Positions 14,818 to 54,159 of a stretch of 64,000 nt of DNA are shown here, piece after piece. Source of the DNA: Vallitalea guaymasensis (GTDB taxonomy: Bacteria > Bacillota > Clostridia > Lachnospirales > Vallitaleaceae). The notes below the pieces were generated by a model. It worked only from the letters and a program-made list of their open reading frames with translations. It was not told the origin of the DNA and ran no database searches. A program made the position numbers and the translations under genes. The first letter of the stretch is position 1; every line of letters begins with the position of its first letter. Location of the stretch: NCBI RefSeq assembly GCF_018141425.1, contig NZ_CP058561.1, forward strand, positions 620,001 through 684,000, written 5' to 3'.

Positions 14818-14818
14818 A

Positions 14819-34040: not shown

Positions 34041-34493
34041 TTAATTAGCTTTTGCACTAACTCTGCATTTATCACAATAGCCAAATATTTTCAATTTGTA
34101 ATCTGTACACTGGAAACCCTTCTCTTCCAATAACCTCTCATAGAAGTCATCCTTTATCAATCCTGAAGCTTCAATGACTTTACCGCATTTTTTACATATG
34201 AGATGATGATGATTTCTAGTATTCTCTATCTCTATTTCGTATTTAGCCGCACTATCTCCAAAATCGTGTTTTATTACAACGCCTTTTTTTAATAACATAT
34301 CAATAGTCCTATATATTGTAGCCATTCCTATTATGTTTTCTTTATCTTTTATTAAAGTATAGATTTCATTTGCAGAAAGATGTTTTCCTACATTCTCAAT
34401 CAGAGTATTCAATATTATTTTTCTCTGATATGTCAATCTTATATCCATTTTTTCTATTAAATTATTCATAATAGGATTTACTTCCGTACTCAT
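34041..34493 (-). CDS. Fur-family metal-responsive repressor
   Basis: This 150-residue protein has the N-terminal winged helix (RLTYQRKIILNTLIENVGKHLSANEIYTLIKDK, then IGMATIYRTIDMLLKKGVV). The C-terminal domain has the His-rich metal site NHHHLICKKCGKVIE and the structural zinc pair CKKC and CDKC. It could be Fur, PerR or Zur. The Fur-type boxes in this window (before sufC, before the nitrogenase-like operon and before the CopA regulator) make Fur the best guess. It lies downstream of the Suf genes on the same strand, 137 bases away, and may be read through. Confidence 0.88.
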   Translation of the reverse strand: MSTEVNPIMNNLIEKMDIRLTYQRKIILNTLIENVGKHLSANEIYTLIKDKENIIGMATIYRTIDMLLKKGVVIKHDFGDSAAKYEIEIENTRNHHHLICKKCGKVIEASGLIKDDFYERLLEEKGFQCTDYKLKIFGYCDKCRVSAKAN

Positions 34494-34629
34494 ATAAACC
34501 CCTCCATTTTCTTCACTATTTAATTTTATGTTAAATCAGCCTTATATATGGTTATAATCCAACATATTATTTACTTAAATATCCAAACTAGATTACTGAC
34601 AAATATTTGTTAACTTATTCATTAATCCA

Positions 34630-35583
34630 TTACATATACTGTTTTGATTGAATATTACTTCCATCAATAACTATTTCTTCTTCCTCACCTAAGAAGCCTG
34701 TTACAACTAAATCTATAGCTTGATCTTCTGTTAATCCTCTACTTCTTAGATAGTTAAGAATATCTTCTGATATTTTCCCAACTGACGCTTCATGTGTCAG
34801 AGATGCATCCTTGTTTCTGTTGACTAGTTTTGGTTCCGCCACAATGCTACCTGAATCAGATAAAAGCAATCCCATACAATCCAGATGCCCTATTCCTGCC
34901 TCATTACCAATCATATTACTGTAAGCATTAATCTGTGATTTGTATCTTGAAATCATTCTTACTCTTGAAATACCGTTAGCATCTTTTCCATTAAGATAAG
35001 TATCATCATACATATCCACTTTTCCACGTTCAGCTAAAACAGTAGTTACAAAGTTGAGAGAGGCTTTTTTATCTAGATAGTTGGAATTCCTTATATTCAT
35101 CTGCATAGGAACTTCATGGCATTTGTTATTATATGAAACTTGTGCATTTTCTTTTAATATAAGTTCCATACTTGATTCAACAGTGTCATATTTACCCCAT
35201 GAATGAAAATTATTGATTTCAATCATCGCATTTTCTTTAGCAACTATTTTGGTCTCACCACTGTGTTTACCATATAAATATTTCTTTCTCGCTGCACAAA
35301 CACTTTGTAACTTAGCCTCTACATTTTTCTCTACTACGACTAGATTGTTGGTATTTTGGACAACATACATAGAACACATAAGAATATTAGTTATTATAGG
35401 TTTATCAACAGATTTCTTTACCCATATAAAATATCCATTCTCCGGTTTCTTGCAATAGAATCCTCTTACCCAGTCATAGGTATCGAAAGCTTTAGTTATA
35501 GGCAGAATAATTAAATCTTTTTCTTCATGTATCTGAACATCATTATCTAGCTGAAGATAACTTACATGTTTTACATTTTTCAT
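34630..35583 (-). CDS. SufB/SufD-type Fe-S scaffold subunit (short, minimal Suf/SMS-like)
   Basis: The product is a beta-helical SufB/SufD-family protein of 317 residues, much shorter than SufB (about 470). It resembles the single scaffold subunit of minimal two-gene SufC-SufB systems in methanogens and Clostridia. Typical segments are AKENAMIEINNFHSWG, the beta-helix repeats LNFVTTVLAERGKVDMYDDTYLNG, and the C-terminal NRNKDASLTHEASVGKISEDILNYLRSRGL, including the Glu/His region conserved in SufB. I start at ATG 35581-35583, 7 bases after GAGGAG. It overlaps the end of sufC by 41 bases, so translation is coupled. Confidence 0.85.
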   Translation of the reverse strand: MKNVKHVSYLQLDNDVQIHEEKDLIILPITKAFDTYDWVRGFYCKKPENGYFIWVKKSVDKPIITNILMCSMYVVQNTNNLVVVEKNVEAKLQSVCAARKKYLYGKHSGETKIVAKENAMIEINNFHSWGKYDTVESSMELILKENAQVSYNNKCHEVPMQMNIRNSNYLDKKASLNFVTTVLAERGKVDMYDDTYLNGKDANGISRVRMISRYKSQINAYSNMIGNEAGIGHLDCMGLLLSDSGSIVAEPKLVNRNKDASLTHEASVGKISEDILNYLRSRGLTEDQAIDLVVTGFLGEEEEIVIDGSNIQSKQYM

Positions 35584-36244
35584 AGCCATTCTCCTCAATC
35601 AACCTCCATATTTTTTCCCAATCTTTTGATGAGCAAGTGATTTTGCCATCTAGCATCACATGTGCATAATCAGGTTTAAAATAGTTAAGTGCTTTACCTC
35701 TATGAGTAATCAATAGTATCGTTTTATCATTTAATTGTTCTTTTATCAACAAACATAATCTTTCTAGATTCTCTACGTCCAATCCAGCATCTAATTCATC
35801 CAATATTATTAAATCTGGGTCCAAACTTATAACTTGTATTACTTCTGAGAATTTTCTTTCTCCACCAGAGAAACCTATATTCACATCTCTCTGCATCAAA
35901 GATTCTATTCCTTCTATCTTAACGTTCTTTTTTCTTATTTTGTCCAAGAGTTTTGATAATTTCACGTTGATTGCAGGTGGATTCTGGTAGACTGCTGCCA
36001 TACCTCTTTGCGCTCTTTCTTCAATCTCAATATCCGATATATCTTCATCTTTAAAAAGAATCTTGCCACCTTTTATTTTATATTTGGAAAATCCTAATAA
36101 TGTACAAAGTAATGTTGACTTACCTGAAGCATTAGGACCTAATAATACATGGGTTTCTCCTTTTCCCATTTCTAAATTAAGCTTATCCAAAACTTTTTTC
36201 CCATCCACCTCAACTTCTAGATTATCAATCTTAAGTAAACTCAT
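35543..36244 (-). CDS. sufC: SufC-type Fe-S cluster assembly ATPase
   Basis: This 233-residue ABC ATPase has Walker A GPNASGKSTLL (about residue 38), a Q-loop in AAVYQNPPAIN, the signature FSGGERKFSEVIQV typical of SufC rather than transporters, Walker B LIILDELDAGLDV and the H-loop TH. It powers cluster assembly on the adjoining SufB/D-type subunit. The C-terminal CKTCKLSSAR adds a Cys pair. AGGTGAT precedes the start. A near-consensus Fur box lies about 170 bases upstream, suggesting induction by low iron. Confidence 0.92.
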   Translation of the reverse strand: MSLLKIDNLEVEVDGKKVLDKLNLEMGKGETHVLLGPNASGKSTLLCTLLGFSKYKIKGGKILFKDEDISDIEIEERAQRGMAAVYQNPPAINVKLSKLLDKIRKKNVKIEGIESLMQRDVNIGFSGGERKFSEVIQVISLDPDLIILDELDAGLDVENLERLCLLIKEQLNDKTILLITHRGKALNYFKPDYAHVMLDGKITCSSKDWEKIWRLIEENGYEKCKTCKLSSAR

Positions 36245-36574
36245 TTTATATCACCTCTTTCTTTAGTTTCTATTAATTTATGAATAATCAATAAGTTAGC
36301 TAGTCGTTGATTCTTTATTAATAGCTTTCCTTAACTTTGCTATTATTTTTCACATTTATATTATTAGTATTAACTATAAATGGCTAATTAAACTTATTGT
36401 TTCTTTAATAATGATAGTCATTATCACTTAATGTTTATAAATAATAGGCTTGAACATATTCAAAGCCCTTTCTGATAATTACTTATAACCTTCTAATTAC
36501 GGAATATTTACTTTATTTTAACATATAACGTAACCTTATTCAACTAGTTACCCGTAAAGTTTTACAAATATCCT
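36245..36574. promoter_or_regulatory. 330-base region upstream of sufC with Fur box and hairpin
   Basis: There is no gene. It holds the Fur box at 36412-36426. A hairpin at about 36447-36469 (GGCTTTGAATATGTTCAAGCC on the minus strand in two arms) could terminate the minus-strand remnant gene ending at 36575. The rest is AT-rich leader and promoter sequence. Confidence 0.5.
36412..36426. promoter_or_regulatory. Fur box before sufC
   Basis: TGATAGTCATTATCA matches the 7-1-7 Fur consensus TGATAATNATTATCA at 13 of its 14 defined positions. It lies 168 bases before the sufC start, and a Fur-family gene is the third gene on the same strand. Confidence 0.75.
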
Positions 36575-37862: not shown

Positions 37863-38258
37863 ATGTTTGTGTGGCAAAATATATTACCTTTCCCAGTTAT
37901 AGCAGATGAATTGGGTCGTGTATCAACTGAACTTGGCATGCTTCATGAGAAAAAAGGCACTAATACTGTTAGAGCAGTATTTATAGTTGATGCTAGTGGT
38001 ATTTTACGTCTCATGATGTATTATCCTCAAGAAGTAGGTAGAAGCGTAGATGAAGTACTTCGTGCTGTAAGAGCTCTACAAGCATCTGATGCTAATAAAG
38101 TAGCAACGCCAGAAAATTGGCCAAATAATGGTTTTATTGGTGATAAAGTCATTATTCCTCCAGCTAGCTCAGAAGCAGAAATAAAAGCTCGTGAAGAAAG
38201 TGTTAACAACGGAGAGATTGAATGCAAAGATTGGTGGTTCTGTTACAAATCTCTTTAA
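37863..38258 (+). pseudogene. 1-Cys peroxiredoxin (Prx6-like), C-terminal remnant
   Basis: The frame encodes the second half of an AhpC/TSA peroxiredoxin. [19 protein letters not shown], then [39 protein letters not shown], and a C-terminal dimerisation domain ending [11 protein letters not shown] are all present. The first 80 or so residues, including the peroxidatic Cys in the Pro-x-x-x-Thr-x-x-Cys motif, are absent. No ribosome site precedes the first Met. It is a truncated, probably inactive copy, although its terminator is intact. Confidence 0.8.
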
Positions 38259-38332: not shown

Positions 38333-39475
38333 TCACTGTGACAACTCAGCTTTTGTTAAAGTATTATTGATCTGTTGTACAAGATAATAAGCTCCTCTAT
38401 AACCCATGATAGGCAAATATGGATACTCGTTGTCTTGTCGAAAGCTTGGGGGACTTATCTGTATTACGTTTTGATTATGCAATGCTTCTATCCCATCAGA
38501 GAAACGAATGATAGCTTCTCTTTCATCTACTGTTTTTTTGAAGCCAAGTTTATATAAATATTCTTCTAAATACTTGTAAGATATATTATTGTTGTTAAAA
38601 CATAATTTATTATTATCCAACCTTGCTACTCTTCTTTTAAGCATATTTTCTTTATAAACTACTCTATTGATTTCACTATTATCTTCTGTCGGAGTAATTT
38701 CCATATTCAATAACTCACTAATACTATTCAACCATTTCTTAGTACCTTCTATACCATAAGGTGTTAAATATATATACGGTTGGTCATATGCTTCTTCTAA
38801 TAATTTTGCCGCTTCTAACCCTTCCTTATGAAGTACTATATTTATTAATGCTTTTGAAGCTTGTTCTATATCCTTAATATTAGTATCTAACATGAAAGTT
38901 GTACCAAGCTCCAATGAAAAATTCTCTTTCATGAGCCTTTTGATTTCCTTGAAATCACTACTCTGATTATAATTATATATACCTAGACCAAGTATATTAT
39001 AAAAAGGTAATTTCTCCATCTTGGGACTTTTCTTGGTAATCTCATTAACCAATATTTGTAATGTCTCATCAACACCATGTGTAAAATCATTCTGAAAATC
39101 ACAATCTGGCAGTAATATTATTTTACTATCTACTCTATCCTCTACTTGAAATCTAACACTTTCTAGATCAATTCCAATGATTGATGTTATGGACGATCCT
39201 ATAACGAAAATGTATTCTGGTTTCTCAATTTCATCTATTTCTAGAATAGCATCTATGATTCTGTCTTCATTGCCAAAAGTTACATCATGTTCATCCATAT
39301 GTGTTGTAAAAGTCTTAGCAGATGTATCCGCACCAAATTGCATAAGTCCTTCAATAGAAAAATGTGTTGTACCAGCAGGACCAAATTCTATGATAACAGC
39401 ATCATTAATACCATTTAATGTCCATAGGATACCCATTCTATCAGAAGCTATAGGATTATTTTTATATAATTTCAT
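38333..39475 (-). CDS. Nitrogenase component 1-like subunit lacking cluster cysteines
   Basis: The 380-residue protein follows the NifD/NifK/BchB fold order. It starts SDRMGILWTLNGINDAVIIEFGPAGTTHF, then MDEHDVTFGNEDRIIDAILEIDEIEKPEYIFVIGSSITSIIGID, and ends PIMGYRGAYYLVQQI. At the places where nitrogenase subunits carry Cys ligands it has Thr/Ser (GPAGTTHFS, GSSITSII). Its only Cys are near residues 125 and 293. It therefore probably contributes at most a non-Cys ligand, as the BchB-type partner of DPOR contributes Asp. It is the last gene of the six-gene operon, 13 bases after its partner, with GGAGG before its ATG. Confidence 0.8.
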   Translation of the reverse strand: MKLYKNNPIASDRMGILWTLNGINDAVIIEFGPAGTTHFSIEGLMQFGADTSAKTFTTHMDEHDVTFGNEDRIIDAILEIDEIEKPEYIFVIGSSITSIIGIDLESVRFQVEDRVDSKIILLPDCDFQNDFTHGVDETLQILVNEITKKSPKMEKLPFYNILGLGIYNYNQSSDFKEIKRLMKENFSLELGTTFMLDTNIKDIEQASKALINIVLHKEGLEAAKLLEEAYDQPYIYLTPYGIEGTKKWLNSISELLNMEITPTEDNSEINRVVYKENMLKRRVARLDNNKLCFNNNNISYKYLEEYLYKLGFKKTVDEREAIIRFSDGIEALHNQNVIQISPPSFRQDNEYPYLPIMGYRGAYYLVQQINNTLTKAELSQ

Positions 39476-39488
39476 ATTAGGGCCTCCT

Positions 39489-40937
39489 CTACATACTCGC
39501 TCTATGATTTTTCATCATTTCTACCATAGAATCATTGTCGTCCAAAGTTAATAATGCTTCCTTCATTCCGTCTGGAATCTCTTTCATATTAAGTAGAACT
39601 TTTTTCATGGGTGCGGGCATATTCTTAAGATTTTTTATTTTATCTCTAACTTCGTCCTCCATAGTACTCTTTTTTTCATCTAAAAGGCTGAAGATACCTT
39701 TTTCCTCTAAAATAGTACCTAGAACCTCAGTTATTTTTTCAAATCCAATTTTCTTAGCACAATTATCTGTTACTATCTGTACAATATTATGTTCAGCAAG
39801 AATCATTGGACTTTCATGTCCAAAATAATAATCTGGACTTAACTCACCATATATTCGCCTTAGAGGTGCAATGTTTGCCATACGTACTATATAAGGATTT
39901 ACGCCTTTATCAATTAACCTATCCATTACTTCCCTATCACTTTTTACCAGTTCTCTACATTGAATTACTATTGGAACCATACCTAACCCAACCAAGAAAT
40001 CAGAAAATTCAAAGCAACTGAAAGGCGTGTTACCGTAAATGAAACTTTTATTTTTTAGTAATTGTTCTGCAGCAATTAAATCAGATGTAACTGACTTATA
40101 CTTTTCATTAATAAGAGAATCAAATTTTATATCTAAGATATCTCCAATTTGTTCGTAAGCTTCTACTATTTTATCTAAATCCAGTGCCTTAGGAAAAATC
40201 ACATATGGAATACCCAATGACTTTTCCATCTCCTTAGCAAGTGATAAAGCTGTATGTTCAACCACTATATTCAAAGAACTCTCAGCAGCTTTTTGTATAG
40301 TTTCCATATTTACTTTAGTAGGTATGGTCATTGATATGTTCACACCGTTTTTCTTAAGTTCCTTATATAGTTCAGTATTTTCTACACCAAGATATTTGAA
40401 TCCTAGTATGTTAACTGTCTTTTCCTTTTTCTCCATAGGAGTCATAAGTGATGCCAATTGTTCTAGTGCCTTCTCAACACCTTCTATATGACTATTGCAT
40501 TTAAAATGTTCGGTCTTCACTATAAGCAGTTTAGTATCCACTTCATCCTTTAGACTACGCAAAATACTAGTAGTGTCTTCACCTATAAGTTCTACAACAC
40601 AAGTTGTTATTACCATAAGTGCTTTTGGTTTCTCTTCTCTATCTATCTTAATTATAATATCCTTAAGGTCTTCTTCACATCCAAAAGTGATATCATGCTG
40701 TTCCAATACAGCAGAATAAACACGGTCTTTTCCATTTTGACGTATCATGGCAAAATCTTTTCCATAATATGTACATTCTTCAGTTCCTATTATTAGAAGT
40801 GTTAGATCTTCAATATAAGACGCTGTCATTACTGCTCCAAAAAGAGGACAGTGAGGACCAGGAAATTGAGCTTTGCTTAAGCTCTTGATATCTTTATCTT
40901 CTCTAATATTAGTCAAACGATACTTTTCATTTAACAT
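39489..40937 (-). CDS. Nitrogenase component 1-like subunit with three conserved cluster cysteines
   Basis: The 482-residue protein is a NifD/NifK-like subunit. Cys30 (FPGPHCPLFGA), Cys55 (GTEECTYYGKD) and Cys113 (ITTCVVELIGED) occupy the three classical cluster-ligand positions. VLEQHDITFGCEEDLKDII follows, as in group IV-type proteins. The centre and C-terminus (FIYGNTPFSCFEFSDFLVGLG, SPDYYFGHESP) complete the three Rossmann-like domains. No FeMo-cofactor His/Cys pair is evident, so it is not a dinitrogenase. A helical tail of about 70 residues follows (EVRDKIKNLKNMPAPMKKVLLN). It overlaps the upstream ATPase gene by 11 bases. Confidence 0.85.
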   Translation of the reverse strand: MLNEKYRLTNIREDKDIKSLSKAQFPGPHCPLFGAVMTASYIEDLTLLIIGTEECTYYGKDFAMIRQNGKDRVYSAVLEQHDITFGCEEDLKDIIIKIDREEKPKALMVITTCVVELIGEDTTSILRSLKDEVDTKLLIVKTEHFKCNSHIEGVEKALEQLASLMTPMEKKEKTVNILGFKYLGVENTELYKELKKNGVNISMTIPTKVNMETIQKAAESSLNIVVEHTALSLAKEMEKSLGIPYVIFPKALDLDKIVEAYEQIGDILDIKFDSLINEKYKSVTSDLIAAEQLLKNKSFIYGNTPFSCFEFSDFLVGLGMVPIVIQCRELVKSDREVMDRLIDKGVNPYIVRMANIAPLRRIYGELSPDYYFGHESPMILAEHNIVQIVTDNCAKKIGFEKITEVLGTILEEKGIFSLLDEKKSTMEDEVRDKIKNLKNMPAPMKKVLLNMKEIPDGMKEALLTLDDNDSMVEMMKNHRASM

Positions 40938-41724
40938 TATTCTTGCCTCCTTTAAAAACTTTTATAGGTCTTATATGTACTTTCCCATCTTCATCGTGGG
41001 CTACAATTGCCTCTACTTTATATACATCCCTAATTAATGCTGAACTGAAAATCTTATCGGGTTCTCCAATCTTTTCAATCCTTCCTCTCTTCATGACACA
41101 TACTCTGTGAGAATACCTGCACGCTTGATTTAGATCATGTAGAACCATGACAATAGTCATATTCAGTTCTTTGTTCAATTCTTTTATCAAATCAAGTACT
41201 TCCAATTGATGACATATATCCAAATATGTTGTAGGCTCATCAAGAAGGAGTATTTTAGGATTTCTAGCTAAAGTCATAGCTATCCATACTCTCTGCCTTT
41301 CACCACCTGATAATGAATTCACGGGTTTATCCGCTAGATACATGACACCTGTTTTTTCCATAGCCCAGTTGATTTGTTCCTTGTCATAATCACTCATAGG
41401 CTCATACCATTTTTTGTGAGGCATTCTACCGTATAGTACCAACTGTTTTACAGTAAAATCAGTAGTAGAACCATGATGTTGACTTAACGCCGCTAATCTC
41501 TTAGCTATTTTTTTAGCTGATAGTTTTTTTATATCATCTTTCTCTATTAATATATTTCCTTTTTGGTATTCAAGTTTTTTTGTAATATTTTTCAGTATAG
41601 TTGATTTTCCAGAACCATTAGGTCCTACTATTGATAATATTTCTCCCTTATTGATTACTAGGTTCAGATCATTTATAAAGGGCATTTCATTATATGAAAA
41701 TGATATATTATTTAATTCAATCAC
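40927..41724 (-). CDS. ABC transporter ATPase, haem/siderophore type (FecE/BtuD-like)
   Basis: This 265-residue ATPase has Walker A IVGPNGSGKSTILKNI (about residue 34), the Q-loop in LAALSQHHGST, the signature VNSLSGGERQRVWIAM, Walker B ILLLDEPTTYLDI and the H-loop VLHDLNQACRYS. All match the iron-chelate/cobalamin/haem import class. Its start overlaps the permease stop by four bases (ATGA) and its end overlaps the next nitrogenase-like gene, so it is embedded in the operon. It energises the FecCD-type permease encoded upstream. Confidence 0.93.
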   Translation of the reverse strand: MIELNNISFSYNEMPFINDLNLVINKGEILSIVGPNGSGKSTILKNITKKLEYQKGNILIEKDDIKKLSAKKIAKRLAALSQHHGSTTDFTVKQLVLYGRMPHKKWYEPMSDYDKEQINWAMEKTGVMYLADKPVNSLSGGERQRVWIAMTLARNPKILLLDEPTTYLDICHQLEVLDLIKELNKELNMTIVMVLHDLNQACRYSHRVCVMKRGRIEKIGEPDKIFSSALIRDVYKVEAIVAHDEDGKVHIRPIKVFKGGKNNVK

Positions 41725-42707
41725 CTTTTAGCACCCCTTCTTAGTAAATATAAAAAGAATGGACCACCTAACATTGCCATCATTGTTCCAACAGGCAATT
41801 CAATAGGTGCCGCTATCATTCTAGCCAATGTATCTGCAATAACTAGAACCGCTCCTCCCATGAGCATACTTACAGGCAACAACCATTTATAGTCAGAACC
41901 AAATAGCAACCTGCTTATATGAGGTACAACTAATCCTACAAATCCAATTATCCCAACAAAAGCAACGCTTATACCTGCTAGATAAACAGCTACAAGAGAG
42001 ATAAGTATTCTTGTTAAATTTACGTTATATCCTAGATTCTTAGCTACATCATCGCCAAGCTGTAATACATTAGCTGCTCTGATACATATCAGCGCTAATA
42101 TGATACCAACAATCGAATAAATGCCAAGAAGCTTTACATCCATCCATGATACTCTAGATAATGAGCCATTGGTCCATAACATGACACCTTGTATTTTGTC
42201 TGAATTAAGGAGTGAAAGGAGACCAGTTGCCCCACCTAGAATAGCATTGACGGCTACACCAGCTAATACAATTCTAATAGGTTCAATTCCTCCACCTTTC
42301 CATGCCAACCCATAAACAATCCCACAAGCTATAACACCACCAACAAAAGCAGCTATTGGAACTAGTGACACATAACTTGGAAATAGCAACAAGATTATAA
42401 TTGCAAATAGACTAGCACCAGCTGAAACCCCAGTAATACCAGGGTCAGCCAATGGGTTCCTCATAACAGCTTGTAGAAGTGCTCCACTAGCTGATAAATT
42501 AGCACCGACAAAAACAGCTATCCATACTCTCGGAAGTCTTATGTCACTAATAATAGCTTTTTTTACAGTATATTCGTCACTGAAAAGGCTCTTAATAATA
42601 TCATCTAAAGATATCCTTACACTTCCTAAACATATACCAAGTAAAATTGATAAAATAAGCACACCAATAATAATTATCAATTTTGATTTTAGCCAATTTT
42701 TTACCAT
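41721..42707 (-). CDS. ABC transporter permease, FecCD family
   Basis: This 328-residue protein has about ten membrane helices and the FecCD hallmarks: DIRLPRVWIAVFVGANLSASGALLQAVMRNPLADPGITGVSAGASL near the N-terminus, then FVGIIGFVGLVVPHISRLLFG and ELPVGTMMAMLGGPFFLYLL at the end. The family imports ferric siderophores, haem or cobalamin as a homodimer. It begins three bases after the binding-protein stop and overlaps the ATPase start. Confidence 0.93.
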   Translation of the reverse strand: MVKNWLKSKLIIIIGVLILSILLGICLGSVRISLDDIIKSLFSDEYTVKKAIISDIRLPRVWIAVFVGANLSASGALLQAVMRNPLADPGITGVSAGASLFAIIILLLFPSYVSLVPIAAFVGGVIACGIVYGLAWKGGGIEPIRIVLAGVAVNAILGGATGLLSLLNSDKIQGVMLWTNGSLSRVSWMDVKLLGIYSIVGIILALICIRAANVLQLGDDVAKNLGYNVNLTRILISLVAVYLAGISVAFVGIIGFVGLVVPHISRLLFGSDYKWLLPVSMLMGGAVLVIADTLARMIAAPIELPVGTMMAMLGGPFFLYLLRRGAKR

Positions 42708-42710
42708 ATA

Positions 42711-43754
42711 CTATTCACCATAAATCATGTCAGCTAATTTTTCTAAAGCCTCCGCACATCTTATATTGGCAACTACACCAAAATAATGTGGGTCAAGGTC
42801 AAACACCTGCTCATTTTTTACTGCGTCTAGAGCATTCCATACTGGGTTTTCTGCAAACTCTTTTTCGAACATTTTTTTACTTGTTTCTGGGTCTGCATGA
42901 GTGAATCTAAGTATTACATCTGGATTCATTGCAACAACTGATTCAATACTAAAAGGTAAATAAGGACTTTTGATATCCATATCATCAGTTATGTTTTCCA
43001 GATTCATACGATTGGCTAAATCTCCTATGTATGACATGTCTGTAGCTAACATGAAACTTTCAGGTGTTCCAAATATTATCATGACTTTCTTACTGTCTTT
43101 ACCTTCTATCTTATCCATTACTTCCTTTTCAACTTTTTTCATGTTACCTATAATCTCATTTGCTTTATCTTCTTTGTCAAAAGCTTTCCCAATAGATTCA
43201 ATTGAAGCAATGATATCGTTGTATCCACTAGTTTTTACAAATTCAGCTTTTATTTTCTTATCTTTTAGACTTTCTTCTAAACTATCTTGTAAAGCACTAT
43301 CAGTAATAAATACATCAAGTTCCAGACTTTTCAGCTTTTCCATATCTGGTTGCATACTCATTCCAATAGCTGGAAGGTCTGCGTAACGCTCTGGTATATT
43401 ATGAGATTTTGATGATGGTACCCCTACTAAATCTATTGTTAGTGCATCAAATATTTCTGTTAATCCTATTGTTCCTACTGCAACTTTTTCAGGTATTGAA
43501 TCAAATTCCAGTTTACTATCTTCTTTTTTTGATGCGCTGGTCATATCATCAATCTCTTCTTTTTTATTATCTTCATCACTATGTACGTTTTCTTTACCTT
43601 CTTTTTCATCTACATCACTATCTTTTTCTTGTCCCTTATTGTCCTGTACCTTTGTCCCATCTTTACTCGTTTCAACTTGAGTGTCCTTAGAACTACACCC
43701 TACAGCCATCATCACCACTATTAATATCAAACATATTAAACCTTTATTTCTCAT
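42711..43754 (-). CDS. IsdE-like haem/iron-chelate-binding lipoprotein
   Basis: The signal sequence ends in a lipobox (MMAVGC, lipid-modified Cys20), followed by a 60-residue Lys/Asp/Glu-rich linker. From residue 82 the sequence follows staphylococcal IsdE as I recall it: [21 protein letters not shown], then [43 protein letters not shown] and [23 protein letters not shown]. IsdE binds haem through a Met and a His. Met134 (SMQPDM) and His286 (RFTHAD) fall at the matching places. This suggests haem or a similar chelate as ligand. Start ATG 43754 is 10 bases after AGGAGG and overlaps the nifH-like stop. Confidence 0.85.
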
Positions 43755-44508
43755 TATCATTTTCCTCCTTAATAATCTTTTGTGCTAAATCCATATATAT
43801 TTTAGACATTTCATCCTCTGGAAAAGCTTCTACAACAGTCTTACCCAGATTTTCTGCTTTTTGTACTATTGGATTCCTTGGTATATGCTGAATAATTGAT
43901 GTATCCAGTTCTGTACTTAATTTCTTAACTAGTTCACCTTCGTTTTCAATGTTCTTAGCATTTAATATCAATCCGCCAAGAGAAGCATATTCACGATTAG
44001 AGAACTGCCTTACTGCTTTGGCAATATTGCTGGCTGCATACATACTCATCATTTCACCACTTGTTACGATAAATACTTCATCTGAATATCCTTTTCTAAG
44101 AGGCATGGCAAATCCACCACAAACTACATCCCCTAGAACATCATAGATTACTATGTCAGGCTTATAGATTTCATAAGCATTAAGCTCTTCCAATAATTCA
44201 AATGCTGATATTATTCCTCTCCCAGCACAGCCTATACCTGGTGTTGGACCTCCTGCTTCTAGACATAAAACTCCACCGTCACCAATAACCATAATATCCT
44301 CTAACTTAGTCGCTCTTTTCTTCTCTTTCAATGTATGTAGAATCGTAGGAATTCTCTTTCCTCCTACAAGACTCTTCGTAGAATCAGCTTTTGGATCACA
44401 TCCTATCTGCATTACTGTTTTTCCTGTCGCAGCTAATGCTCTGGACAAATTTGATACTGTAGTAGATTTTCCAATACCGCCTTTTCCATAGATTGCTATT
44501 TTTTTCAT
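43744..44508 (-). CDS. NifH-like Fe protein (nitrogenase-like reductase ATPase)
   Basis: The 254-residue protein has the P-loop [16 protein letters not shown] (residues 7-22), switch I DPKADST, Cys94 in [10 protein letters not shown] and Cys130 in [12 protein letters not shown]. These are the two Cys per monomer that bridge the [4Fe-4S] cluster in NifH, BchL and CfbC. It should donate electrons, with ATP hydrolysis, to the NifD/K-like pair encoded four genes downstream. It is the first gene of the operon. A Fur-type box lies 26 bases before its start. Confidence 0.93.
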
Positions 44509-44533
44509 AAACTCACCATCTCTTTCCGCTTAA

Positions 44534-44554
44534 TGATATCAATTATCATTATCA
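44534..44554. promoter_or_regulatory. Fur-type box before the nitrogenase-like operon
   Basis: The 21-base site contains AATTATCATTATCA preceded by TGATATC. On the minus strand it reads as three GATAAT-like hexamers, the classical Fur array. It lies 26 bases upstream of the nifH-like start and differs at one base from the site at 44617-44637. Confidence 0.78.
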
Positions 44555-44616
44555 ATTACATTTAATATTTTTAGAATTTCTTCAATTTCTTTTGTTATTA
44601 TATCAAAATTATGTTA

Positions 44617-44637
44617 TGATATTAATTATCATTATCA
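44617..44637. promoter_or_regulatory. Fur-type box before the araC gene
   Basis: This second copy (TGATATT followed by AATTATCATTATCA) is identical to the first in 20 of 21 bases and in the same orientation. It ends 16 bases before the araC start, overlapping where RNA polymerase or a ribosome leader would sit. Confidence 0.75.
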
Positions 44638-44653
44638 ATACTAGGAGGAAGTT

Positions 44654-45916
44654 ATGAATATTTTTTTATCTAATAACAATAACATTATCTATCCGCATCT
44701 CAATCATGTACTGAAAAGTTATTATTATACTACTGGATATAGTGTTTACGCATATAATGATACTGGAAAAATAATAGATAAAATAACTAAGGATGATTAT
44801 GCAGACGTAAATAATTATATGGACAACTTAGCTGGGAGTGTAATTGCCAACTATTTACATAATACTTCTTTATCACCACGAGATTCATTAATATATGAAT
44901 TATATAAAAATACATACACTATAATAGCTCCTGTTTTAAGAGATAATATGCTTATAGCTTTCTTAATGATGGAACCTTTTACAATTATAAATCTTTCTAC
45001 AATAGATAAAAAATGTTATTTTGAAAAGTATTGTAAGGCTACAAAAATACCTATTACCTACTCTACTTTCAAAAACTTTAATTATATACATAATAACAGA
45101 CTTAATTATCTAGGACAATTATTCTATCATTTGATGTCTAAAAGCATCTATATAGGATGTCAGCATTTTAGACCTATGGAAACTATGAATAGTACGAAAT
45201 GGGGTAAAGCCCTACCTCTTGATTCTTACAATTATACAAATGGTTTTATTAATTTTCCATCTGTCAAGCAGATATGTGATTACTTGGTCATAAAAGATAT
45301 TGAGAACGCACTGAAATCATATAATACTATACAGATATTTTTAGAGCTACCTTACCAAAATAAATGTAATATAAAAATGCTAAAATATCAATTAGTAGCA
45401 TTTACTACAGTTATACAGTATCATCTGTGCATTCATTTTAAAGAGCTGAAAACCCAATTACATAAGATTTCCAATACTTGTATTTTAAATATTGACCAGC
45501 ATTATGATTATAGTACCTTGTTTCAAATTGGAGAGTTGATAATAAAAGAATTCTTTGGTGTGATAAAAAATTATGATTCAATAGAATTATCTCCGAACAT
45601 ACTTCAAGTATTAAAGTATATACATACAAATTATATGAATAATATAAAATTAGGTGATATAGCAAAGAGTATTCCCATGAACGAAAGCTACCTATCAGCT
45701 CAATTCAAGCAAGAATATCATATATCATTAAAACAGTATTTGAATCAGTATCGTATCAATCAAGCTACCATACTGATTAAGAATTCAAATTATAACCTGA
45801 CTGAAATAGCGTTAAAAGTTGGATTTGAGTCAACTAATTATTTTTCGACTGTGTTCAAAAAACATCTAAAAATGACACCAAGTCAATATTACAAAAAATA
45901 TCGTGATGATATTTGA
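44654..45916 (+). CDS. AraC-family regulator of the nitrogenase-like operon
   Basis: This 420-residue protein has a C-terminal AraC double helix-turn-helix (IKLGDIAKSIPMNESYLSAQFKQEYHISLKQYLNQY, then YNLTEIALKVGFESTNYFSTVFKKHLKMTPSQYYKKY). The 300-residue N-terminal part is a sensor-like domain of a kind I do not recognise as cupin, with a PAS/PocR-like feel (TTGYSVYAYNDTGKIIDKITKDDY). It diverges from the operon and both promoters carry Fur boxes. By analogy with YbtA-type circuits it may activate the operon when ligand and iron starvation coincide. AGGAGG precedes the ATG. Confidence 0.87.
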   Translation: MNIFLSNNNNIIYPHLNHVLKSYYYTTGYSVYAYNDTGKIIDKITKDDYADVNNYMDNLAGSVIANYLHNTSLSPRDSLIYELYKNTYTIIAPVLRDNMLIAFLMMEPFTIINLSTIDKKCYFEKYCKATKIPITYSTFKNFNYIHNNRLNYLGQLFYHLMSKSIYIGCQHFRPMETMNSTKWGKALPLDSYNYTNGFINFPSVKQICDYLVIKDIENALKSYNTIQIFLELPYQNKCNIKMLKYQLVAFTTVIQYHLCIHFKELKTQLHKISNTCILNIDQHYDYSTLFQIGELIIKEFFGVIKNYDSIELSPNILQVLKYIHTNYMNNIKLGDIAKSIPMNESYLSAQFKQEYHISLKQYLNQYRINQATILIKNSNYNLTEIALKVGFESTNYFSTVFKKHLKMTPSQYYKKYRDDI

Positions 45917-48687: not shown

Positions 48688-50418
48688 CTATGCACTACAC
48701 AAATTTCTAGTTTCAGCACTTTTCTGTGCATCCCATAATTTCCTATATAATCCATTACTGTTAAGTAGTTCATCATGACTACCCGTTTCAACTATTTTAC
48801 CTTTATTGAATACCACTATTTTATCTGCACTTCTAATAGTTTTTAGATGGTGGGCTATTACTATAACCGTCCTATCAGCCGCCAGATTGCTTATGGCCTT
48901 TTGTATTTTTCTTTCATTTATAGGGTCAACATTACTTGTCATTTCATCAAGGATTACAATAGGAGCATCTTTTAGAAAGGCTCTAGCTATAGAAAGTCTC
49001 TGTTTCTGACCTCCCGATAAACCTACACCATTTTCTCCTAATCTTGTACCATATCCCTCTGGCAGAGATTTAATGAAATCATGTATCTCAGCTTTTTTAG
49101 CCGCTTCTATGATCTCTTCTCTTGTTGCATCATTTTTACCAACTTTAATGTTCTCATATATTGAATCTGAGAATAATATTACGTTCTGCATTACAATACT
49201 TATATTTGATAGTAGCTCATCATAGTCAATCTCTCTTGTATCATTTCCACCTATTCTTATTTCTCCTTGTTGAGGATCCCAAAATCTTAATAATAAATTA
49301 GTGATAGTTGTCTTTCCTGAACCAGAAGGTCCTACTAGTGCAACCATATTACCTTCATCAATGCTTAGATTAACGTTACTTAATTGAAATTCGTCTTTTT
49401 CATAATTGAAATAGACATTATTAAACCTTATATCAAACCCATCCATTTTCTTAGGTTGATCCACTTCCTCAATAACTTTAGCATCCATTATTGCCATTAC
49501 TCTACTATAACTATCTTTGACTTTAATATAATTAAGCCAATGAGATTCAATATTTGTAAATGGCTTATAGAATTCTTTGCTGAAAATTATAAAAATTATA
49601 TAGTTAGATACATCCAGCTGCCCATAGAATACCATAAATGCTCCTACAATCGCTAATACCCCAAATGATAGTTCTAAAAACAAAAAATATTTTCCTATAT
49701 ATTTTGCTATGGATTTAGATAATCTCTTACTGCTTTCACCAAACCTATTAGTACTGTCTTTTAGTTTGTTTTCAAATGTTTCACTTTCATTGAAAGCTTT
49801 TAATAGAGGAATTCCTTTAGTATACTCTACAAATAAGCTAACCATATCAGCAAGATTATCCTGAGTATCTTCTTCTAATTTACTAGTTGATTTTATTCCT
49901 TTTATCAATAGCAATAGACCTATAGGCAAAAATGAAATCATTGCCAATCCCATCTTCCAATTAATAGCAAAAAGCAAGCCTCCAATAATGATAGCTGTAA
50001 TAAAATCGCTGAACATTCTTGACCACATATGAGCTGTAATGCTTTCAATATTATCCACATCTTTATGGATAACCGTACTAATCTCTCCCAGCCTTTCCTT
50101 AGAATAGAATCCTAGAGAAAATTGTTTTAATCTTAATGTTACCTTAGTTCTTATTTTTGCAGCAATTTCAAAACCACTGAAATGTTTTGCAAGGTCTGCT
50201 ATTGTATTAAACAATCCGTTTAATAATATTATAACTGCAAGAGCTATCCAATACATATGAAGATTGTCTGTCCTACCATCTATTATTTTATTAAGCATAT
50301 CCAAAATGACCAACATCATAGATGCACCTAATAGAGATTTCACTGTAAAGGATATTATTGATAATATAAGCATACTTTTACCTTTTCTAGTCATATATCT
50401 AAAAATAGTTGATATCAT
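48688..50418 (-). CDS. ABC transporter, fused permease-ATPase (second half-transporter)
   Basis: This 576-residue half-transporter has six membrane helices (about residues 15-300). The nucleotide-binding domain follows, with Walker A VGPSGSGKTTITNLLLRFWD, signature GVGLSGGQKQRLSIARA, Walker B IVILDEMTSNVDP (Met in place of the usual Ala) and the H-loop. Its ATG overlaps the stop of the upstream half-transporter (50415-50418), so the two probably form a heterodimer. Substrate may be a drug, peptide or siderophore. Confidence 0.9.
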   Translation of the reverse strand: MISTIFRYMTRKGKSMLILSIISFTVKSLLGASMMLVILDMLNKIIDGRTDNLHMYWIALAVIILLNGLFNTIADLAKHFSGFEIAAKIRTKVTLRLKQFSLGFYSKERLGEISTVIHKDVDNIESITAHMWSRMFSDFITAIIIGGLLFAINWKMGLAMISFLPIGLLLLIKGIKSTSKLEEDTQDNLADMVSLFVEYTKGIPLLKAFNESETFENKLKDSTNRFGESSKRLSKSIAKYIGKYFLFLELSFGVLAIVGAFMVFYGQLDVSNYIIFIIFSKEFYKPFTNIESHWLNYIKVKDSYSRVMAIMDAKVIEEVDQPKKMDGFDIRFNNVYFNYEKDEFQLSNVNLSIDEGNMVALVGPSGSGKTTITNLLLRFWDPQQGEIRIGGNDTREIDYDELLSNISIVMQNVILFSDSIYENIKVGKNDATREEIIEAAKKAEIHDFIKSLPEGYGTRLGENGVGLSGGQKQRLSIARAFLKDAPIVILDEMTSNVDPINERKIQKAISNLAADRTVIVIAHHLKTIRSADKIVVFNKGKIVETGSHDELLNSNGLYRKLWDAQKSAETRNLCSA

Positions 50419-52157
50419 GAATTTACTACCTCCTTAATTGCCCAGTTGTCTACACAGGCTTGTTCTTCAATCATCTTCTTATATAACTTACTATCTTGAA
50501 GTAGTTCTTCATGACTACCATTACCCACAATCCTACCATCTTCCATAACAAAGATTTGATCTGCATTTATTACAGTATTAAGATGATGAGCAATCGTAAT
50601 GATTGTTTTATTTTTACCTAAGTTATCTAATGCTTTCTTAATCAGATGTTCATTGGCTGAGTCAATAGCTGAAGTTGCCTCATCTAATATAATGACAGGA
50701 GAGTTTTTGAGTATCATTCTTGCTATAGATAATCTTTGTTTTTCTCCTCCTGACAGCTTAGCTCCTGATTCACCAACTATTGTATTATAACCTTTTGGAA
50801 GACTCATAATCATATTGTGAATCTGAGCTTTTTTAGCTGCTTCTATGATTTCTTTTTTGGTAGCCTCTTTCTTTCCTATCCTAAGGTTTTCTTCTATACT
50901 CATGTTAAATAAAAAAGCTTCCTGCTGGACAATTGATACTAGTCTAGACAAATCATGTTCACTGATCTTGCTGATATCTTTACCATCAATATTTATCATT
51001 CCACCACTTGGCTTCCAAAATCCCATTATTAGATTAGCGATAGTTGTTTTCCCTGAACCAGACGCTCCTACAATTGCATTAATTGAATGTTTTTTGAAAA
51101 CTAAATTAATATCTTTAAGTATTTTTTTGTCCTCATCATAACTAAATTCAACATTCTTAAATTCTATGTCACCAGATTTTATATTACTATTTATCTCATT
51201 AGTATTATTTGGTTTTACTCCCATTACAGAGTTGATTTCTCTTAGGGCGTTTTTAAAAATAATACTCATATGATGGAATATAGGAAGTTTAGCAAAAGTA
51301 TTACTAAAGATTCCACCTAGGATTATTGCTAAAACAAAAGTATTAACATCTATCTTATTATCTTTCAACAATATGGAACCCACAATTGCCAATACTACAA
51401 GACCACCTTCCATAAGCATTGTTGAAAAAGTCATAGGAAAAGAGATACTAACAGTCATTTTCTTTACCCATGAGATATAATCATCCATACCATCCAGTAA
51501 TTTTTTGGTTCTTTTCTCTTCCTTACTAAATGCTTTTATAACTGGAATGGTAGCTATATACTCTATTAGATCTTCTGACATCTTTTTAGTACTTTTAGCA
51601 TAATGCATAAATTTACCTGCAATAAGTTTGTTGAGTATTTTTTGGTACAAAAACACTAGTGGTACAGTTGATATCAAAGCCAATCCCAGACGCACATCCA
51701 TAATAAGCAAACTGACCGCTATGACAAAAGGTATTAGCATAGCTATAGTTATTTCTGGCAATCCATGTGCCAAATATAATTCTGTCTGATCAACATCATG
51801 ATTTATAATATTTGTCAAATCTCCAATTTTTCTTTTCTGAAAAAAACTGAAAGATAATTTTTTCAAATGTCCAATCATGTTTATTCTGATTTCTGATAAT
51901 ACTGAAAATGCGAAATCATGGGCTTTCCACATGGATAACCCATAAAAAACTGCTTTCATAACTTGACAACAACATATAATTCCACCAAGTATAATAATCA
52001 TCTTTGTTGTGATTTCGTTATTTGAAAGTAGACTTACCATCCTCATAACTATAATTATTGGGATTATACCAATTGTTACACTTACAGCTATCAATATTCT
52101 TGATGGTAAACTTCTCCTTTTGTACTGATTTACTGAAACGCTACTATCTTCTTTCAT
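50415..52157 (-). CDS. ABC transporter, fused permease-ATPase (first half-transporter)
   Basis: This 580-residue half-transporter has six membrane helices, then an ATPase domain: Walker A VGASGSGKTTIANLIMGFW, signature GAKLSGGEKQRLSIARM, Walker B VIILDEATSAIDSA with the catalytic Glu, and the H-loop AHHLNTV. It begins after AAGGAGG. A MarR operator (52196-52214) lies 39 bases upstream of its start and the marR gene precedes it. Co-translated with the second half at an ATGA overlap. Export of a toxic compound sensed by MarR is the usual logic of this arrangement. Confidence 0.92.
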   Translation of the reverse strand: MKEDSSVSVNQYKRRSLPSRILIAVSVTIGIIPIIIVMRMVSLLSNNEITTKMIIILGGIICCCQVMKAVFYGLSMWKAHDFAFSVLSEIRINMIGHLKKLSFSFFQKRKIGDLTNIINHDVDQTELYLAHGLPEITIAMLIPFVIAVSLLIMDVRLGLALISTVPLVFLYQKILNKLIAGKFMHYAKSTKKMSEDLIEYIATIPVIKAFSKEEKRTKKLLDGMDDYISWVKKMTVSISFPMTFSTMLMEGGLVVLAIVGSILLKDNKIDVNTFVLAIILGGIFSNTFAKLPIFHHMSIIFKNALREINSVMGVKPNNTNEINSNIKSGDIEFKNVEFSYDEDKKILKDINLVFKKHSINAIVGASGSGKTTIANLIMGFWKPSGGMINIDGKDISKISEHDLSRLVSIVQQEAFLFNMSIEENLRIGKKEATKKEIIEAAKKAQIHNMIMSLPKGYNTIVGESGAKLSGGEKQRLSIARMILKNSPVIILDEATSAIDSANEHLIKKALDNLGKNKTIITIAHHLNTVINADQIFVMEDGRIVGNGSHEELLQDSKLYKKMIEEQACVDNWAIKEVVNS

Positions 52158-52195
52158 ACTTGCCTCCTTATAATCTTATATTTATAAATAATCAT

Positions 52196-52214
52196 ACGTA
52201 TAGTATGTATACGT
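52196..52214. promoter_or_regulatory. MarR operator before the ABC transporter genes
   Basis: ACGTATA and TATACGT are perfect 7-base arms around GTATG. The same CGTATA-N5-TATACG pattern recurs at 52690-52706 before marR, which is strong internal support. Confidence 0.78.
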
Positions 52215-52231
52215 TTAGATAAAAAAAAATA

Positions 52232-52681
52232 TTATAGATGCCTTTCTGCCATCTCACTGGTTTTTTCAATAAAAGTTACCACTATTTCTAATTCATGGTC
52301 ACTTAATTCGTCTAGATATTGTAATATATCTTTATCAGATACTTTGTGATGTTCTTCATGGCTTAAATACGCTTTCTGACCTTTATCTGTTAATTTTACT
52401 AACAACCTTGTATTATTTGTCTCGTCAAGGTACTTTTCAACTAACCCCTTTCTTTCTAGCTTTTTAAGAGACTGTGAGACTGCTCCCTTAGTAACTCCAA
52501 ATTTTCTCGCTATTTCTGAAACATGTAGATTAGCATAATCTCCTATTAATTTAATTATATGGATTTCACTTCTATATATGTCTACATCTGTTCCATAATT
52601 ACGAGGATTTTTACCACAATTAGATATTTTTTCTGTCATAGTCATAAATTTTTCAATTGCTTCTTCCATATTCTTCTTCAT
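52232..52681 (-). CDS. MarR-family transcriptional regulator
   Basis: The 149-residue protein has the MarR winged helix (SEIHIIKLIGDYANLHVSEIARKFGVTKGAVSQSLKKLERKGLVEKYLDETNNTRLLVKLTDKGQKAYLSHEEHH), flanked by the dimerisation helices. It precedes the two ABC genes on the same strand. One operator sits in its own promoter and a second one before the transporter genes, so it most likely represses both. The ribosome site is weak. Confidence 0.9.
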   Translation of the reverse strand: MKKNMEEAIEKFMTMTEKISNCGKNPRNYGTDVDIYRSEIHIIKLIGDYANLHVSEIARKFGVTKGAVSQSLKKLERKGLVEKYLDETNNTRLLVKLTDKGQKAYLSHEEHHKVSDKDILQYLDELSDHELEIVVTFIEKTSEMAERHL

Positions 52682-52706: not shown

Positions 52707-52826
52707 TTTTTGTCAACCTTTAATTTTAATAATTTTATCAAGCAGAATAAGTTTTATGAATACAACCAGTATAAAACTGGATAAATGGGTATTGCTTATT
52801 ATGACATATTATGATAATATATTTTG

Positions 52827-52917
52827 TGCAGGGAATGAAGTTCTCCCTTAGCAAAAGCTAGAACCGCTTATACGCTGATGACTTCTGTGATTATATCGCA
52901 GAACCATCAGCTTTTTT
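52827..52917 (+). ncRNA. Fluoride riboswitch (crcB motif) with terminator
   Basis: The aptamer core reads AGGGAATGAAGTTCTCCCT, then a small TAGC-AAAA-GCTA hairpin, AACCGC, and GCTGATGACTTCTGTG. It has GAAGT pairing with ACTTC, GGGA with TCCC, and the conserved GCTGATGAC of the crcB motif. GCTGATG at 52874-52880 can instead pair with CATCAGC at 52905-52911, making a terminator that includes TTCTG/CAGAA and ends in six T (52912-52917). Ligand binding would stop terminator formation and turn on the antiporter gene 52 bases further on. Confidence 0.85.
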
Positions 52918-52968: not shown

Positions 52969-54159
52969 ATGTTATTTAGTTTAGCATTAATTTTGATTTT
53001 AGGATTTGCACTAAGTGGAATTCTTAACAAGTTAAATCTACCTGGTCTATTAGGTATGATCTTAACCGGAGTGATACTTGGTCCATTTGTACTTAACCTT
53101 ATTTCACCAGAAATTCTTAATATTTCTGGCGACCTTAGAGAAATTGCCTTGATAGTAATTCTAATTAGGGCTGGTCTATCTCTTGATATAAGAGATTTGA
53201 AGAAAGTTGGTAAACAAGCCGTACTAATGTGTTTTATCCCTGCAACTCTCGAATTAACAGCAGTAATTATACTGGCTCCAATATTTTTTCATATAAGTTA
53301 TATTGAAGCAGCTATCATGGGGACTGTATTAGCCGCTGTTTCACCAGCAGTAGTTGTGCCAAGGATGATTAACCTAATGGAACGTGGTTATGGAAATGAC
53401 AAAAGCATACCTCAATTGATAATGGCAAGTTCATCTGTTGACGATATCTATGTTATTGTTTTATTCACCGCTTTTTTAGGAATGTATAGTGGAAAAGGCT
53501 TCGAGACTTCAAGCTTATTATCTGTACCATTATCAATAGTACTTGGATTACTACTTGGTATACTAACAGGTATTGTCTTTATCTGGGTAGTAAAAAGGCT
53601 TCATATGAGAGATACTGTCAAAGTGCTTATAATACTCAGTATTTCATTTTTATTTTTGACTCTTGAGAGTTATGTAAAACCTACAGTATCAATATCTGGT
53701 TTGCTCGCTGTTATGGCTCTAGGTGGAACCATATCTGAATCCTATAATGTACTGGCTAGAAGATTGATGACTAAGTTTTCTAAGATATGGGTAGGCGCAG
53801 AGATACTATTATTTGTATTAGTTGGTGCAGCTGTGGATATTAGATATCTGGCTGGTGCAGGTTTAATCTCTATACTACTTGTTTTATGTGCGTTAGTATT
53901 CAGAATTTGTGGTGTAAACATTTGTTTATTAAAATCAAGCTTGAATAAAAAAGAAAGACTATTTTGTTCAATAGCCTATCTGCCAAAAGCAACTGTACAA
54001 GCAGCTATTGGCGCTATACCTTTACAAAAAGGAGTCGAATCTGGGAACACGATTCTCACTGTAGCTGTTCTAGCCATTATAATAACCGCTCCCCTTGGAG
54101 CTATAGGTATTGATTATACCCATAAAAAATTCTTGAATCATGCAGCAACCAATAGTTAA
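52969..54159 (+). CDS. Cation/proton antiporter (CPA family), under fluoride riboswitch control
   Basis: The 396-residue protein has 11-12 membrane helices and the CPA exchanger motifs LNLPGLLGMILTGVILGP, ALIVILIRAGLSLDIRDLKK, GTVLAAVSPAVVVPRM and SSVDDIYVIVLF (the paired Asp of the exchanger core). A terminal LPKATVQAAIGAIPLQKG follows. The soluble TrkA-type domain of larger CPA2 proteins is absent. Fluoride riboswitches are known to precede such antiporters as well as CrcB/Fluc and CLC-F, so a role in fluoride resistance or the ion balance that accompanies it is likely. AAAGGAGG precedes the ATG. Confidence 0.9.
   Translation: MLFSLALILILGFALSGILNKLNLPGLLGMILTGVILGPFVLNLISPEILNISGDLREIALIVILIRAGLSLDIRDLKKVGKQAVLMCFIPATLELTAVIILAPIFFHISYIEAAIMGTVLAAVSPAVVVPRMINLMERGYGNDKSIPQLIMASSSVDDIYVIVLFTAFLGMYSGKGFETSSLLSVPLSIVLGLLLGILTGIVFIWVVKRLHMRDTVKVLIILSISFLFLTLESYVKPTVSISGLLAVMALGGTISESYNVLARRLMTKFSKIWVGAEILLFVLVGAAVDIRYLAGAGLISILLVLCALVFRICGVNICLLKSSLNKKERLFCSIAYLPKATVQAAIGAIPLQKGVESGNTILTVAVLAIIITAPLGAIGIDYTHKKFLNHAATNS

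Follow-up and report, generated by a model that had tools for sequence, protein, structure and literature searches.

The stretch of DNA analysed here, 64,000 nucleotides of the Vallitalea guaymasensis genome (contig NZ_CP058561.1, positions 620,001 to 684,000; hereafter the window), contains at 38333-44508 an operon in which a haem-type importer of the ATP-binding cassette (ABC) class is joined to a nitrogenase-like reductase. As judged from sequence, its most probable function (probability about 0.6) is to take up haem when iron is limiting and to reduce it with an ATP-driven enzyme resembling dark-operative protochlorophyllide oxidoreductase (DPOR), probably with release of the iron. All six genes are located on the minus strand, with neighbours overlapping or at most 17 bp apart in the list of open reading frames (ORFs), in the order NifH-like reductase, substrate-binding protein (SBP), permease, ATPase and the component-1 subunits D and K; an AraC-type regulator is encoded divergently across a gap of 145 bp. 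This gene set had been proposed in an initial annotation of the window, and the ORFs as well as the Pfam and NCBIfam matches agree with it.

To our knowledge, the ways in which anaerobes gain access to haem iron in the absence of oxygen are still poorly understood, and for many nitrogenase-like proteins of group IV no function is known. Here, several lines of sequence evidence tie one nitrogenase-like clade to haem uptake and iron control, and specific proteins and residues of the locus are open to immediate experiment.

Conservation of the gene block

In an even draw from the class, any D match at an E-value of 1e-10 was obtained in 43 of 291 genomes, and matches of at least 36% identity in five of the 291, the window's own genome included. 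Scanning genome contigs with a five-row D alignment gave 46 further loci from 61 candidate stretches, mostly in Bacillota, which together with the window and locus L036 make up the 48 loci considered below. The nearest one belongs to Vallitalea sp. McLGI.32 (75%), followed by Hathewaya massiliensis, Clostridiaceae and Alkaliphilus transvaalensis, while further carriers comprise gut members of the Lachnospiraceae and Oscillospiraceae, Phascolarctobacterium, three strains labelled C. difficile and one Methanospirillum metagenome-assembled genome (MAG). Because they are listed as separate species, the three C. difficile-labelled strains are probably cryptic lineages. The window's own clade is defined by 11 rows of a D tree (SH-aLRT 93); L059, L062, L063, L095 and L096 are not among the rows of this tree and were assigned by likeness, and L060, L062 and L096 are near copies. 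Its sister clade consists of the gut Lachnospiraceae, Oscillospiraceae, Phascolarctobacterium and others.

Genes for K (47), NifH (42), the SBP (42), the permease (41) and the ATPase (41) are present at no more than 9 kb from D in most of the 48 loci. The underlying neighbour labels come from profiles seeded with these same loci, several of which are truncated by contig ends, and several of the misses are such ends; the label of the sister-clade AraC regulators (~230 aa) derives from BLAST and a profile seeded with them instead of Pfam. Thus, the NifH-like/SBP/FecCD/ATPase/NifDK-like combination, which the initial annotation supposed to be a conserved block, does recur together across the 48 loci. 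Moreover, distances between D sequences correlate with those of K (0.95), ATPase (0.94), permease (0.92), SBP (0.90) and NifH (0.82), none of 500 permutations being as high in each case (34 to 42 loci, with L062, L084 and L096 excluded). Since D distances track the permease, ATPase and SBP almost as closely as K, importer and enzyme behave as one cassette and evolve together. A flavodoxin gene lies near the block in 12 of the 48 loci, and flavodoxin is a likely electron source.

The IsdE-like binding protein and its haem setting

The importer comprises an IsdE-like lipoprotein as SBP (42711-43760, PF01497), a FecCD-type permease (41721-42707, PF01032, 332 bits) and the corresponding ATPase (40927-41724, ABC_tran). 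Among NCBIfam models the SBP is best matched by IsdE, with 275.9 bits at a cut-off of 298.65. Its Met136 and His288 align with a methionine and a histidine of IsdE (2q8p) which we take to be the haem ligands of that protein. This pair is retained in 10 of 49 SBPs, every one of them from the window's clade, and additionally in an SBP of L056; of three further clade SBPs with the histidine and no methionine, two are ORFs missing that region and one has histidine instead. Likewise, the pair is absent from the SBPs located beside BchH/CobN-type chelatases in the window genome and in Hathewaya.

For searches on the level of whole genomes, 14 genomes were chosen to represent the window's clade. In 13 of them, with places matched by hand from coordinates, the best IsdE-like protein of the entire genome is the one at the NifHDK locus. 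The Hathewaya protein reaches 357 bits and exceeds the cut-off, and the other 12 stay under it with 161-290 bits, or 123 bits for a shortened ORF. The exception is Vallitalea sp. McLGI.32, where no importer accompanies NifHDK and an IsdE (340 bits, over the cut-off) is encoded elsewhere, next to a haem protein of Shp type and a NEAT/SLH protein. The relatives also supply haem-related neighbours: the Hathewaya locus (L033, identical with L054) carries, in this order, NEAT, SBP, permease, ATPase, sortase, NifH, D and K, and NEAT and sortase genes accompany the block in L056 and L057 as well. In a search of 32 genomes, NEAT genes were found in five, and in three of these they lie inside the NifHDK locus. 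In view of this strong homology, the SBP is inferred to bind haem, which the permease and ATPase would bring into the cell. The earlier claim of a haem-type importer with an IsdE-like binding protein is therefore borne out, and it is strengthened by NEAT, sortase and IsdE in relatives.

Probable control of the operon by iron

Between the operon and the AraC-type gene (44654-45916, plus strand, AraC helix-turn-helix domain), four overlapping matches to TGATAATNATTATCA with at most three mismatches are found as two box pairs, one on the operon side (44534-44554) and one on the AraC side (44617-44637), the latter including the best site with one mismatch. Within the 145-bp gap, no more than two mismatches are seen at three Fur-type sites, a number of sites equalled in none of 5000 shuffles, and a best site of at most one mismatch was reached in nine of 5000. 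Over the whole AT-rich window, such matches are modestly above chance (38 vs a mean of 26). The boxes on the AraC side overlap promoter-like matches, of which 44480-44680 holds five compared with a shuffle mean of 2.2. For a comparison of upstream regions, 40 loci were used; those in which NifH is missing were excluded, as were L093 and L095, whose upstream stretches are too short. A Fur box with at most two mismatches occurs in seven of 13 loci of the window's clade vs none of 27 other loci, and in two of the seven the upstream region has 51% GC, with shuffles there averaging 5.7 mismatches. Hence, the Fur-type boxes that had been reported in front of both the operon and the AraC gene are confirmed, and the low-mismatch boxes, here and in the clade, support the view that the operon is probably under iron control.

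A candidate regulator of these boxes is a Fur-family protein encoded outside the block at 34041-34493 on the minus strand, about 3.8 kb beyond K (PF01475, 98.9 bits). Its gene adjoins those for a SufB-like protein and for an ABC ATPase similar in size to SufC (34041-36426 in total), and a one-mismatch Fur-type box at 36412-36426 is situated upstream of the latter pair.

A DPOR-like enzyme distinct from nitrogenase

The enzyme part consists of an ATP-dependent reductase (43744-44508, PF00142) and two PF00148 subunits, the NifE/BchN-like D of 482 aa (39489-40937) and the NifK/BchB-like K of 380 aa (38333-39475). None of the three reaches an NCBIfam equivalog cut-off. Concerning the DPOR equivalogs, K scores 111.3 of 490.35, D 60.0 of 419.95 and the NifH-like protein 206.5 of 345.15 bits; the NifH-like protein obtains 342.6 bits with the CfbC model (cut-off 402). 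In a 70-row tree containing 19 D and 20 K sequences from 20 loci out of the 48 (one NifN-B-type reference limited to its first 460 residues), the family's D rows cluster together (SH-aLRT 96), and both subunits stand apart from the NifDKEN, BchNB and CfbD references. The K rows do not form one group: there are three label changes, the K of L037-L040 are among them and the K of L061 is placed beside L038-L040. The single CfbD reference is a very long, distant branch, and no component-1 subunit groups with it. As a quick method was used and branches are long, the deep placement is unsure.

Residue conservation, evaluated over rows above 250 bits (47 D, 47 K and 41 H), indicates where an iron-sulfur cluster would be held. 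Cys30, Cys55 and Cys113 of D are retained in 46 of 47 rows, the remaining row having gaps there, and in profile alignments they coincide with the cysteines that bind the cluster in BchN, NifD and NifE. In K, no cysteine is found at either place compared: one NifD cysteine is replaced by Thr36 (46/47), which is followed by Thr37 (47/47) and His38 (45/47), and the other by Ser95. In DPOR, Asp36 of BchB acts as fourth cluster ligand beside three cysteines of BchN; in K, Thr36 lies near this place and no aspartate occurs there. Cys94 and Cys130 of the NifH-like protein are invariant (41/41). Additionally, His29, His144, His150 and His374 of D are conserved in 44-46 of 47 rows and are candidates for haem or proton handling.

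AlphaFold2 models of D and K are of good quality (mean pLDDT 88.0 and 86.5) and retrieve nitrogenase chains first by Foldseek E-value (for K, a nitrogenase beta chain), and for D the search does not discriminate; for K, the highest TM-scores (0.81-0.82, query-normalised) are obtained with BchB chains of DPOR, and BchB is also the best of six reference profiles in alignment. DPOR acts on a tetrapyrrole. With DPOR (BchLNB) the enzyme thus has in common an L/H-type ATPase with two component-1 subunits, three cluster cysteines on the N/D-type subunit and the affinity of K to BchB. In contrast to DPOR, it is separate in the tree, scores far below the cut-offs and is linked to an importer and Fur-type boxes. 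Overall, it looks like a DPOR-type [4Fe-4S] reductase, yet by score and tree it is not DPOR. CfbCD of F430 biosynthesis resembles the block in its combination of a NifH-like protein with component-1 subunits, and differs in that the CfbC cut-off is missed and the sole CfbD reference is distant in the tree.

That the operon might encode a true nitrogenase can practically be dismissed. The NifH-like protein does reach 346 bits with the nifH model; the cut-off, however, is 394, and the nifD and nifK cut-offs are missed as well. No PF00148 gene beyond D and K and no match to the nifB model TIGR01290 were detected in the window genome and, hence, no nitrogenase set is present in this genome. Furthermore, no NifEN match was obtained, D and K lie outside the NifDKEN branches, and aligned position 226 of D, equivalent to Cys275 of the nitrogenase alpha subunit that binds the iron-molybdenum cofactor (FeMoco), is valine in the window (29 V, 13 T, 2 M, 2 C and 1 L among 47 rows). 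The exclusion of nitrogen fixation made at the outset therefore holds. It is also very unlikely that metal, or haem iron, supplied by the importer is used to build a metal cofactor for the nitrogenase-like protein. A suggestion of this kind, metal transport for cofactor assembly, has been made in general terms for such genes lying with ABC systems (Dos Santos et al. 2012, PMC3464626, in the sections drawn on here). Against it stand the valine or threonine in 42 of 47 rows at the FeMoco cysteine place and the lack of any other component-1 scaffold or nifB match in the genome; a [4Fe-4S] enzyme, moreover, should presumably need no dedicated importer.

Proposed route of haem use

In the proposed mechanism, Fur would leave its boxes upon iron limitation and the operon would be switched on, with the AraC protein possibly sensing a ligand by analogy with siderophore regulators. 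Haem would be bound by the lipoprotein and taken in through permease and ATPase. The NifH-like protein, fed by flavodoxin or ferredoxin, would hydrolyse ATP to deliver electrons to an Fe-S cluster bound for the most part by the three cysteines of D, and the D2K2 complex could then reduce the imported haem as DPOR and chlorophyllide oxidoreductase (COR) reduce protochlorophyllide and chlorophyllide, respectively. Once the ring is reduced, either by itself or along with the iron, the metal might be loosened and supply the cell with Fe2+, the end point being a chlorin-like stage, Fe2+ release or ring opening. In this way, the enzyme would take the place of the haem oxygenase (IsdG/I) of aerobic Isd loci. 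The more specific notion of a nitrogenase-family enzyme in breakdown, i.e. an ATP-driven haem reductase which, in anaerobic cells starved of iron, removes the metal from imported haem or opens its ring, is put forward tentatively and falls somewhat short of even odds. The initial proposal that an imported tetrapyrrole or iron chelate is handled when iron is scarce is supported in part: the haem-type importer, the probable iron control, the nitrogenase-like enzyme that is not a nitrogen-fixing one and its place in the tree all speak in its favour, while we infer haem as substrate, enzymatic haem reduction and iron release.

If this is true, the nitrogenase superfamily would gain a new reaction, and gut and environmental Bacillota a new way of processing haem anaerobically: an anaerobe's stand-in for haem oxygenase, apart from the radical SAM and CobN-like enzymes.

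The tetrapyrrole-acting members of the family known to us, DPOR, COR and CfbCD, work in biosynthesis. Accordingly, haem might be reduced to make another tetrapyrrole cofactor, or be detoxified, iron release not being the aim. Chlorophyll and F430 are the biosynthetic products named for such enzymes in the part of PMC11423573 considered here, and genes of ABC exporter type are near the block in 17 of 48 loci. The Fur-type boxes in seven of 13 clade loci, however, are better suited to iron supply, and this alternative appears quite unlikely.

Points against haem and the scope of the assignment

Several observations weigh against a haem-degrading function. Porphyrin reduction alone frees no iron unless the ring is reduced far. 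Six of the 13 clade loci are also without a Fur site of at most two mismatches, and the Fur-type sites of C. difficile (three mismatches) are no better than those in shuffles. NEAT was rejected as a general mark of the system (five of 32 genomes), the window genome having no NEAT gene in this search. In the sister clade, no SBP has the Met/His pair and no Fur site with at most two mismatches is found upstream of the loci; the best match of its SBPs is still IsdE in all seven tested (67-101 bits). Outgroup SBPs with similar linkage (L037, L043, L046 and L050 tested) match IsdE weakly or not at all. Finally, in Phascolarctobacterium faecium a cobalamin riboswitch (L089:1891-2082), situated some 4 kb ahead of the NifHDK operon, precedes the adjacent gene for a TonB receptor. 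Weak matches to ABM and a BchH-class chelatase, described below, belong to the same side.

Some of these points favour a different substrate, either a corrinoid or another non-haem chelate such as a siderophore, with the likeness to IsdE being one of fold only. Phascolarctobacterium is a diderm and has TonB and TonB-dependent receptor genes beside the block. In addition to the riboswitch, a receptor at 13645-15501 of the P. faecium locus is best matched by the TonB-B12 model. Of the four other Phascolarctobacterium receptors, however, three fit TonB-hemin best, and the one directly behind the riboswitch fits a general ligand-gated channel model, followed by TonB-hemin; all five are under the cut-off. 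The riboswitch was found in one of 20 loci scanned and was hence rejected as a general mark, and none is present in the window between 33000 and 54000. Above all, the Met/His pair, NEAT, Shp and IsdE of the window's clade argue against a corrinoid there, and a non-haem substrate is considered unlikely. Given that the Met/His pair and low-mismatch boxes are absent from the sister clade, and given the one cobalamin riboswitch, members of the family may differ in the chelate that they process, which in the sister clade may be one other than haem. The haem assignment, on the best reading of the sequences, thus applies to the window's clade only.

Possible other haem routes in the same genomes

PF01126 haem oxygenases were not found in any of the 14 clade genomes, and 11 of these, the window genome included, gave no match to the ABM family (IsdG fold). 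In the other three, weak ABM matches (24.7-28.4 bits, cut-off 23.1) make an IsdG-like enzyme possible. No HutW above the cut-off was detected in the 14 genomes; matches under the cut-off occurred in all 14 and likewise in 13 of 14 controls, and were discarded. A CobN-family gene was found in two of the 14, the window genome and Hathewaya, so that these two may have another haem route. On contig 1 of the window genome (about 3341437-3352261, corresponding to L126:3438-14262), a second FecCD-type importer is followed by a chelatase large subunit and ChlI/ChlD-like genes. The large subunit exceeds the BchH cut-off (857.5 of 829), and a similar set exists in Hathewaya (L127). This BchH-class chelatase is a possible porphyrin dechelatase and, having its own importer, a candidate for a second route in the window genome.

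Comparison with described systems

Isd loci comprise NEAT proteins, sortase, IsdE, permease and the haem oxygenase IsdG/I. L054 likewise combines NEAT, sortase, IsdE-like SBP, permease and ATPase, and the order of these genes differs in L056 and L057. Unlike Isd loci, the block carries NifHDK, in genomes with the haem oxygenase results given above. The same purpose, oxygen-free handling of the iron or ring of haem, is presumed for the radical SAM proteins HutW/ChuW and the CobN-like BtuS/HmuS (PMC10035031, PMC6460266 and PMC13227078, as far as these sources were drawn on), yet these protein families are unrelated to NifHDK.

Closest in gene layout are sets reported by Dos Santos et al. (2012; PMC3464626) from Clostridium botulinum and Alkaliphilus oremlandii, in which the genes of NifH and an ABC ATPase are followed downstream by NifEN-like genes; one of the two subunits has three P-cluster cysteines and the other lacks conserved ones. 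These group IV sets share with the block NifH, an ABC ATPase, two component-1 genes and the cysteine pattern. As judged by layout and cysteine pattern, not by direct sequence comparison, they probably belong to the same family. The sections of that paper considered here differ in giving no link to haem, NEAT, IsdE or Fur for these sets. Whether the gene combination is undescribed had been left open by the initial annotation: the linkage of NifH/NifEN-like genes with ABC genes was already noted in 2012, and a link to haem was not encountered in those sections, nor was any paper with such a link for this nitrogenase-like family found in searches of an open-access library. The kind of enzyme and its linkage are therefore already known; new here are the assignment to haem, the setting with NEAT and Isd-type genes and the clade with probable iron control.

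Neighbouring and related loci

Beyond the family, L037-L040, L043, L046, L048 and L050 represent further NifHDK-like subfamilies, most of which are also near FecCD importer genes and possibly serve other chelates. NifH-like domains within ORFs of about 700 aa at L044:11709-13805 and L049:5961-8135 are apparent fusions. Locus L093, with H, D and K on a 3-kb contig of the Methanospirillum MAG, represents either an archaeal transfer or a binning error. Distant matches were obtained in 98 plasmid records, none above 60% identity or over more than 80% of the query, and a viral origin is unsupported, with 0 of 2 candidate stretches in viral contigs.

In the window itself, a simple scan revealed no terminator 3' of K, and at 37863-38258 a peroxiredoxin remnant is found of which the C-terminal part alone is left (profile positions 96-219 of 220). 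About 2.8 kb beyond the AraC gene, a MarR-type regulator is followed by two half-size ABC exporters (48688-52681), an arrangement that recalls PefRCD of streptococci. A fluoride riboswitch at 52822-52894 lies just upstream of a gene of Na/H-exchanger type (52969-54159), to which it belongs.

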